Source of the DNA: Sitta carolinensis
Taxonomy: Eukaryota > Chordata > Aves > Passeriformes > Sittidae
Length of the DNA stretch: 64,000 nt
Direction: 5' to 3'
Assembly: GCA_032173965.1 (NCBI GenBank)
Contig: CM063283.1
Coordinates: 115,309,187-115,373,186 of the forward strand
The notes below the pieces were generated by a model. It saw only the letters and a list, made by a program, of their open reading frames with translations. It searched no databases and had not been told where the DNA came from. Below, in pieces: positions 1,331 to 27,009 of the stretch (the stretch's first letter is position 1; every line of letters starts with the position of its first letter). Both the position numbers and the translations under genes were made by a program.

Positions 1331-1700
1331 CCCAGAGCCCACGAGCCCCTTTCTGGCACAGGCTGGCACAGCATCCCCCGAGCTCTCTGCCGCGGTGAGC
1401 GGACTCCCGGTGCTCTCGGTTACTCGGCGCTGAGCGAGCCATGGCTGAGCGGGTGCTGGTGATCGGCAGCGGCGGCAGGGAGCACGCCCTGGCCTGGAAG
1501 CTGGCCCAGTCCCCCCACGTCAAACACGTGTTTGTGGCTCCAGGGAATGCAGGCACGGCTGACAACGGGAAAATCTCCAATTCAGGTAAAAAACCGGGGG
1601 AATAAAACCCCGCCCCGAGCAATCAGCGCTGCGGCAGCTGAGAGGAACCAGCCGGGGAGGGAGGGTTGCTCGACTTTTACTGGTGCTGCAAGGGATTGAA
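1330..1700 (+). promoter_or_regulatory. GC/CpG-rich 5' region of the left GART copy
   Basis: CpG dinucleotides cluster around the start codon and the first 100 bases of intron 1, in contrast to the AT-rich DNA upstream (900-1100). There is no TATA box. A CpG-rich start without TATA fits a housekeeping-type promoter, so transcription of the left copy probably starts here. This is inferred from composition only. The intact gene has no comparable CpG cluster at its first coding exon, where a splice acceptor is seen instead. Confidence 0.4.
1441..1585 (+). CDS. Left copy exon 1 (GARS N-terminus)
   Basis: 145 bp encoding the ATG and 48 residues with the N-terminal glycine-rich motif [12 protein letters not shown] that contacts the phosphoribosylamine phosphate in GARS enzymes. 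It differs from exon 1 of the intact copy at one base (CTG against TTG, both Leu), far closer than any other exon. Donor CAG/GTAAAA. Confidence 0.93.

Positions 1701-27009: not shown

Follow-up and report, generated by a model that had tools for sequence, protein, structure and literature searches.

The window, a stretch of 64,000 nucleotides from Sitta carolinensis, carries two copies of GART, the gene of a trifunctional GARS-AIRS-GARTfase (a purD-purM-purN fusion). The left copy keeps its exon structure but has lost hallmark motifs of all three active sites, which raises the question of what has kept it readable. A sequence-only reading of the window had offered two answers: either coding selection had long acted on a non-catalytic role, such as scaffold, partner binding or dominant regulator, or the loss was very recent. 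It had not covered the right copy, which is an ordinary GART, the near-identical exon-1 tract, or the orthologues of the left copy in birds, turtles and crocodilians.

Structure of the two GART copies

We set the exon boundaries of the left copy by homology to the right copy. The left copy (1441-27009, plus strand) comprises 21 exons; all 20 introns are GT-AG and the frame is kept in 20 of the 21 exons, so that the exon-by-exon comparison confirmed the structure previously read from the letters. Exon lengths equal those of the right copy or differ by a multiple of three in 20 of 21 cases, and exon 21 is uninformative on this point because it ends at its own stop. Translation from the ATG at 1441 to the TGA at 27007-27009 meets a first stop at codon 285 when all exons are joined. 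Without exon 6, the copy is a single open frame of 1011 codons with no stop. It lies tail-to-tail with the canonical GART, whose product is identical to Sitta europaea GART at 984 of 1002 residues. The features are summarized in Table 1.

Table 1 Features of the two GART copies in the window.
Feature	Position	Strand	Evidence or remark
Candidate promoter of the left paralogue, spanning the left start codon	1201-1600	+	GC-rich and CpG-richer: GC 0.60-0.64, CpG o/e 0.61-0.74 in two 200-base blocks vs 0.25-0.59 in six preceding blocks
Exon-1 tract homogenised with GART exon 1	1436-1591	+	155/156 bases identical
Left exon 1, GARS N domain	1441-1585	+	Homology to right copy
Left exon 2	2825-2920	+	
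Left exon 3	5669-5843	+	
Left exon 4	7507-7618	+	GARS ATP loop (11 residues)
Left exon 5	8060-8119	+	In frame, 9 nt shorter than right copy
Left exon 6	9207-9327	+	Sole out-of-frame exon; four or five 1-2-base deletions clustered (net -5)
Left exon 7	10262-10349	+	
Left exon 8	11083-11168	+	11-residue motif changed to another of 11 residues; both presumed Mg ligands lost
Left exon 9	11606-11774	+	
Left exon 10	14784-15015	+	
Left exon 11	15115-15209	+	
Left exon 12	15763-15872	+	13-residue motif changed to SQTKGLGPK; Asp65 to Lys
Left exon 13	17796-17994	+	
Left exon 14	19154-19405	+	12-residue motif changed to GEEVTEAA
Left exon 15	20288-20437	+	AIRS AHITGGG changed to APTAE-G; His247 lost
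Left exon 16	21367-21573	+	
Left exon 17	22313-22447	+	
Left exon 18	23654-23784	+	
Left exon 19	25241-25382	+	
Left exon 20	26207-26322	+	Formyltransferase NIHPSLLP changed to NASPSLFP; His108 to Ser
Left exon 21, to TGA	26674-27009	+	Formyltransferase Asp144 to Ser; frame enters 21-base minisatellite
Right copy, canonical GART, 21 coding exons	32042-58448	-	1003-aa ORF, GT-AG introns, examined motifs intact
Right exons 1-7	58448-58304, 53615-53520, 52958-52784, 51599-51488, 50341-50273, 49542-49417, 48861-48774	-	
Right exons 8-14	48389-48304, 47739-47571, 47077-46846, 44113-44019, 43131-43022, 42476-42278, 41149-40901	-	
Right exons 15-21	40595-40443, 39279-39076, 38834-38703, 38161-38031, 36292-36151, 33745-33630, 32224-32042	-	
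GART exon-1 tract, partner of 1436-1591	58298-58453	-	

The position of the GART stop codon is lost in the left copy, and the C-terminal tail found in its bird and turtle orthologues is swapped for residues partly encoded by a minisatellite. This GC-rich array consists of 42 copies of a 21-base unit (26924-27822), into which the last left exon reads. Another tandem array, with units of 21 or 41 bases, occupies 32365-32756 in the last intron of the canonical GART. A perfect 68-base tandem duplication at 11741-11876 includes the last part of left exon 9 together with the donor site of that exon, so that a second identical donor is present 68 bases downstream. A repeat of about 450 bases, LTR-like by eye, occurs in left intron 1 (1757-2213) and just beyond the end of GART (31570-32021), the two being 77% alike. 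The matches between the copies outside the exons look like repeats; dating by introns thus gave nothing.

Orthologues and age of the duplication

Protein searches were inspected for the best 120 of 3429, 7975 and 3461 matches, each from about 7980 scored candidates. With the left copy lacking exon 6 as the query, the top matches (among 120 listed of 3429) were mostly named 'adenosine-3-like' or 'PUR2'. Its relatives among the matches listed came from oscines (up to 90% identity), suboscines, falcons, parrots, an owl, waterfowl, fowl, kiwi, emu and tinamous. A sea-turtle relative used as the query brought further turtles and crocodilians among the matches listed (120 of 3461). No left-like gene of lizards, mammals or amphibians was present among the matches listed.

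After removing exons 1 and 6, we constructed a 130-tip tree from 128 of 264 fetched proteins and both window copies; it excludes P0103 and P0189, each shorter than 940 aa, as well as P0116. A left-like clade of 87 tips (support 0.997) was separated from 43 canonical tips. It comprised 74 bird tips including the window copy, several of them congeners and so not 74 independent cases, together with 11 turtle and 2 crocodilian tips. Birds and crocodilians joined within it (76 tips, support 1.0) beside the turtles. An earlier tree covered a hand-picked subset of the 239 proteins listed first, retained exon 1 and omitted P0116; in it, 75 bird tips plus the single turtle had a support of 1.0, and the inner bird node one of only 0.116. 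The clade of birds, turtles and crocodilians indicates that the duplication predates the turtle-archosaur split. A songbird-only duplicate or one on the germline chromosome was ruled out by the same span.

The AU test, performed with 42 taxa and fast searches, rejected a duplication confined to the turtle-archosaur stem (p-AU 0.012) and did not reject a sauropsid (0.20), amniote (0.16) or tetrapod (0.64) origin. Rejection of the stem implies either an older origin with losses in lizards, and perhaps in mammals and amphibians, or misleading long branches; long-branch attraction could push the origin deeper. The GARTs of six squamates and Sphenodon in the tree were canonical, and the matches listed included no squamate protein recognisable as left-like.

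The listed longest contig was of the same size for both copies in Edolisoma, Sapayoa, Grallaria, Pithys, Geothlypis, Coccothraustes and Zosterops, which is consistent with linkage of the two genes in these genera; the orientation is that of the window alone. Among the proteins set aside, P0103 (Calypte) lacks the AIRS segment of exon 14. As for the gaps at the GGET column in bird rows described below, this GC-rich exon may have been skipped or may fall in an assembly gap. The stickleback GARTs P0116 and P0192 exceed the usual size at 1416 and 1224 aa, one with an extra Pfam domain, PF22657.

Replacement of active-site residues

The replacements of GARS, AIRS and GARTfase motifs that the sequence-only reading had named were all found in the left copy. 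We examined 28 motif positions, each invariant in the 43 canonical GARTs. In the E. coli enzymes, the GARS and AIRS motifs are nearly canonical. For GARS, we take Glu288 and Asn290 (E-x-N) to be Mg ligands, by reference to ATP-grasp enzymes. Glu288 is Asn in every ungapped left-like tip (74/74 birds, 10/10 turtles with the residue, 2/2 crocodilians; 86/86). Asn290 is Lys in 74/74 birds and 2/2 crocodilians and is retained in 4 of 10 turtles. Lys148 of the ATP loop is Arg in all 74 birds and retained in all 13 turtles and crocodilians.

Asp65, Asp94, His190 and His247 are described as active-site residues of PurM, with His247 being Asn in a few archaea, and His108 and Asp144 as those of PurN (PMC3261824); Asn106 is listed beside the latter two in PMC4786211. 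Asp65 of AIRS is lost in 87/87 tips, with Lys in 73/74 birds (Gln once), 11/11 turtles and 2/2 crocodilians, and His247 is likewise lost in 87/87. Asp94 is retained in 65/87 and His190 in 66/87 (5 gaps), both in 13/13 turtles and crocodilians; His190 is Pro in the window copy. In the formyltransferase domain, His108 is lost in 85/85 ungapped tips (Ser in 73/74 birds, Cys or Ser in turtles, Tyr in crocodilians) and Asp144 in 83/83, and Asn106 is retained in 82/85 (71/74 birds). The substitutes at His108 and His247 differ between groups, suggesting that these two losses may be partly independent.

As judged from these alignments, active-site loss is graded, with five key sites changed in all three groups and more on the bird line. 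Several of the changed motifs are identical from kiwi to crow (kiwi, emu, duck, kakapo, crow), namely motif sequence of 22 residues and NASPSLFP.

We scanned eight proteins (the window left copy, five other left-like proteins and two canonical ones) against NCBIfam and Pfam. All six Pfam domains were still detected in the left-like protein. Scores exceeded the NCBIfam equivalog cut-offs for purD (288 bits; 397.9 for the window copy without exon 6 and 521.0 for turtle P0243) and purM (236.35 bits; 256.4 for the window copy and 316.6 for duck P0060). For PurN (150.1 bits), the window copy scored below the cut-off (138.0) and the other five left-like proteins above it, e.g., P0010 at 155.8, P0060 at 184.3 and P0243 at 194.3. 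At the residue level, left-like birds lack the canonical ATP loop and Mg ligands of GARS, the four-residue AIRS set is broken by the losses of Asp65 and His247, and the PurN set of Asn106, His108 and Asp144 is broken in the left-like clade.

Selection and domain wear

We compared exons 2-21 without exon 6 between the left copy and GART. The dS was 0.865, near saturation, the dN 0.305 and the dN/dS 0.352 (bootstrap 0.30-0.42), at 59% amino-acid identity outside exons 1 and 6. Values for individual exons varied widely, and exons 11, 17 and 21, with dN/dS values of 1.2, 0.8 and 1.1, gave no sign of constraint. Neutral evolution of the right coding sequence was simulated once at each of six distances from 0.05 to 0.4, which produced 7-18 stops per run. 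The earlier argument that random decay should leave stops therefore held, since the left copy without exon 6 has none. The copy retains 20 introns, is free of stops apart from the exon 6 frameshift and has a constrained overall dN/dS, and so does not resemble a processed or neutral pseudogene.

The domains are not equally worn. In the 14 bird species with both copies (the 15 used for exon 1 below, minus Zosterops), left-like divergence relative to GART divergence was 1.5-fold in GARS, 3.5-fold in AIRS and 2.5-fold in the formyltransferase. Of the sites common to the E. coli and vertebrate enzymes, the number kept in birds is 31/36 for GARS C, 15/18 for GARS N (exon 1 excluded), 55/87 for ATP-grasp and 78/136 for AIRS; the corresponding values in turtles and crocodilians are 32/36, 16/18, 62/87 and 99/136. 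Sequence retention thus indicates that the GARS N and C domains are the best kept and that the ATP side and AIRS are worn. In GARS enzymes, it is the N and C domains that bind the ribonucleotide.

An AF2 model of the duck orthologue had a mean pLDDT of 68.4, mostly below 60 in the AIRS N part. The first PDB match for each domain was human GARS, AIRS and formyltransferase (TM by target 0.90, 0.81 and 0.90), which supports the fold weakly because the alignment mixed left-like with canonical rows. Left-like rows alone gave a pLDDT of 40.1. The GGET column of AIRS is a gap in 6 of 74 bird rows. The 3.5-fold divergence, the low pLDDT and these gaps make an intact AIRS fold, or AIRS-mediated pairing with GART, doubtful. 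With a homologous fold, lost catalytic residues and conservation over time, the left-like protein has the features of a pseudoenzyme paralogue, the AIRS N fold being the weakly supported part.

Probable gene conversion confined to exon 1

The near-identical exon-1 tracts lie on opposite strands about 57 kb apart and end at the exon edges; their flanks are unrelated (13/55 matches upstream, 27/100 downstream). The single difference between the two exons 1 of the window is synonymous, whereas pS averages 0.51 in other exons. As the window contains both copies of exon 1 on opposite strands, we rejected the idea that annotation had borrowed one from the other.

Outside the window species, exon 1 was compared as protein, the DNA of both copies being that of the window alone. 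We used 15 birds with both copies, i.e., 14 of 25 listed entries plus the window; the other entries lacked one copy or were reptiles, two being cross-species pairs. Over 48 exon-1 residues, own-species differences totalled 9, compared with a mean of 35.4 in shuffled pairings, none of 20,000 of which was as low. In 14 of these birds (Zosterops left out), exon-1 distances were 0.046 between left copies, 0.047 between right copies and 0.012 between the two copies of one species. Oddities were common to both copies of a species: QVQ in Catharus, VVG in Geothlypis, ISSS in Grallaria and AASGK in Pithys. Exon 1 therefore follows the species and not the paralogue, of which recurrent gene conversion limited to exon 1 is the simplest reading.

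Selection on the protein could also hold two exons alike, and exon 1 is conserved in GART generally. We give this explanation almost no credence, as it accounts neither for the synonymous nature of the only difference in the window, nor for species-specific residues in both copies, nor for within-paralogue distances that exceed those between a species' own copies.

Residue 3, compared in four suboscines, is His in the left-like protein and Asp or Glu in GART, suggesting that the start codon is not always included in a conversion tract. One crocodile pair and two turtle pairs, the latter cross-species, differed at 3-5 residues; from these comparisons, conversion seems strongest in birds. Left exons 10, 13 and 21 also show pS values against GART below the average (0.35, 0.39 and 0.26), where older conversion may have occurred.

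The exon 6 lesion

Left exon 6 has 121 nt compared with 126 in the right copy. Nucleotide alignment placed five 1-base gaps, and frameshift-aware alignment placed one 2-base and three 1-base deletions. The exon contains no stop, and 34-35 of 38 in-frame codons match the intact exon 6 of four oscines. If four or five independent lesions are assumed, the chance that all fall in this exon, which contributes 121 of some 3157 coding bases, is approximately 6e-5 or 2e-6, respectively, given the first. The exon is flanked by tandem arrays, one of them an adjoining 23-base array, and the GC content of 9200-9299 is 0.73. The Geothlypis orthologue P0001 is also annotated without exon 6.

Other bird orthologues have 516 sites with a conservation of 95% or more. 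The window copy differs at 7 of them (rank 7 among 39 oscines), and its root-to-tip length is 0.157 against an oscine median of 0.123. From the composition and clustering, the exon 6 lesion is probably a consensus error, for which a GC-rich exon flanked by tandem arrays is a typical setting, rather than decay.

Discussion

Motif losses throughout the clade and conservation of the ruined motifs point to an ancient pseudoenzyme and not to fresh decay. We consider it likely that the left gene is a GART-like pseudoenzyme of this kind, common to turtles, crocodilians and birds and kept by purifying selection, and we infer that its protein is translated, folded and devoid of all three activities. 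A dead GART duplicate that keeps its frame by chance would fit the exon 6 frameshift, the lost GART stop position and the minisatellite-coded tail in this species, as well as the three exons that give no sign of constraint. Such a plain pseudogene is nevertheless highly improbable, considering 1011 stop-free codons against the 7-18 stops of the neutral runs, near full-length orthologues with conserved changed motifs in birds, turtles and crocodilians, and a count of unique changes at conserved sites that other oscines also reach. We also regard as very unlikely a protein that is still catalytic, or newly so, with altered residues. The well-kept GARS N and C domains, the purD and purM scores, Asn106 in most birds, Asp94 in most tips and the ATP-loop Lys of turtles and crocodilians would agree with activity, but the presumed Mg-ligand Glu of GARS, Asp65 and His247 of AIRS, and His108 and Asp144 of the formyltransferase are all replaced.

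An ancient functional paralogue just lost in this lineage, with real exon 6 deletions, would explain the net -5 frameshift with its stop at codon 285 and the somewhat long branch. This is unlikely: real decay should strike the other 20 exons too, whereas the four or five small deletions are crowded into one short exon whose codons still match those of oscines without a stop, in a setting (GC 0.73, flanking arrays) prone to consensus errors. Of the two original readings, very recent loss is thus refuted for the active-site motifs and is conceivable only for exon 6 in this species, where the evidence favours a local sequence error. Long coding selection for a non-catalytic role is strongly supported and far older than proposed: key residues of three domains are replaced across bird tips, five of the replacements extend to turtles and crocodilians, and several changed motifs are conserved in their own right.

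For the ancient pseudoenzyme, the following course can be proposed. GART would have been duplicated and the duplicate retained, here tail-to-tail with GART. Glu288, Asp65, His247, His108 and Asp144 would have been lost by the split of turtles, crocodilians and birds or soon after, and further residues, such as the ATP-loop Lys of GARS, later on the bird line. Purifying selection would have held the protein since those losses. Conversion would copy exon 1 from one gene to the other because no other stretch is still similar enough for pairing, and would in turn preserve that similarity.

The protein could be a scaffold, a ligand binder or a regulator that performs non-catalytic work in purine synthesis by binding a pathway ribonucleotide through its GARS N and C domains, by joining GART or a purinosome partner, or both, and so tune GART flux; we hold this as a tentative idea, less probable than not. 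A more specific and rather doubtful proposal is that a triple-dead GART regulates the synthesis of purines, and so of uric acid, by binding PRA or GAR or by pairing with GART, with exon 1 kept in register by conversion. Turtles, crocodilians and birds excrete much nitrogen via the purine pathway. Squamates are uricotelic too, and the six in the tree had canonical GART, with no left-like squamate protein among the matches listed, which counts against a simple link to uric-acid excretion.

If the protein is made, turtles, crocodilians and birds have possessed a second, non-enzymatic GART in addition to the live one, probably for over 250 million years. In databases, it is listed for many bird and turtle genomes under names of the trifunctional enzyme ('adenosine-3-like', 'PUR2') despite its lost key residues. 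In chicken, the pseudoenzyme reading could be put to the test without delay. In its exon-1 tract, the window also offers a clean natural example of gene conversion limited to a single exon of two inverted copies, the partners being a live enzyme and its dead paralogue.

Comparison with known systems

The left copy resembles canonical GART in domain order, its 21 coding exons, matching exon lengths and fold matches. The left-like clade differs from it in the replaced key catalytic columns of three domains, the 59% identity and an extra C-terminal tail. Left-like sequences are already in public databases, mostly under enzyme names, and we found no paper on a left-like GART paralogue in the open-access literature.

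The vGATs of gammaherpesviruses are presented in PMC10820379 as pseudoenzyme homologues of PFAS that recruit a live cellular enzyme. They are, like the left copy, homologues of a purine-synthesis enzyme without catalytic residues; being viral and homologous to PFAS instead of GART, they would serve as a mechanistic analogy only. CRUOX, the reptilian and avian uricase, is reported in PMC10517255 to have been kept intact and repurposed, with an altered active site and moved expression. Both CRUOX and the left copy are sauropsid purine-pathway genes with altered active sites. According to that source, CRUOX is an orthologue rather than a paralogue, retains weak activity and is enriched in cysteine. 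Cysteine-rich repurposing was rejected for the left-like protein, in which cysteine is only slightly raised (mean 2.8% in birds and 2.6% in turtles vs 2.1% in canonical GART).

For the BEX/WEX/GASP genes, PMC1274310 describes partial concerted evolution in which gene conversion sustains sequence chimaerism of duplicates. The left copy and GART differ from them in that a single coding exon is concerned, in an inverted pair about 57 kb apart that consists of a live enzyme and a dead paralogue. A very old pseudoenzyme paralogue, damaged in three domains and in partial concerted evolution with the live gene, is an unusual combination.
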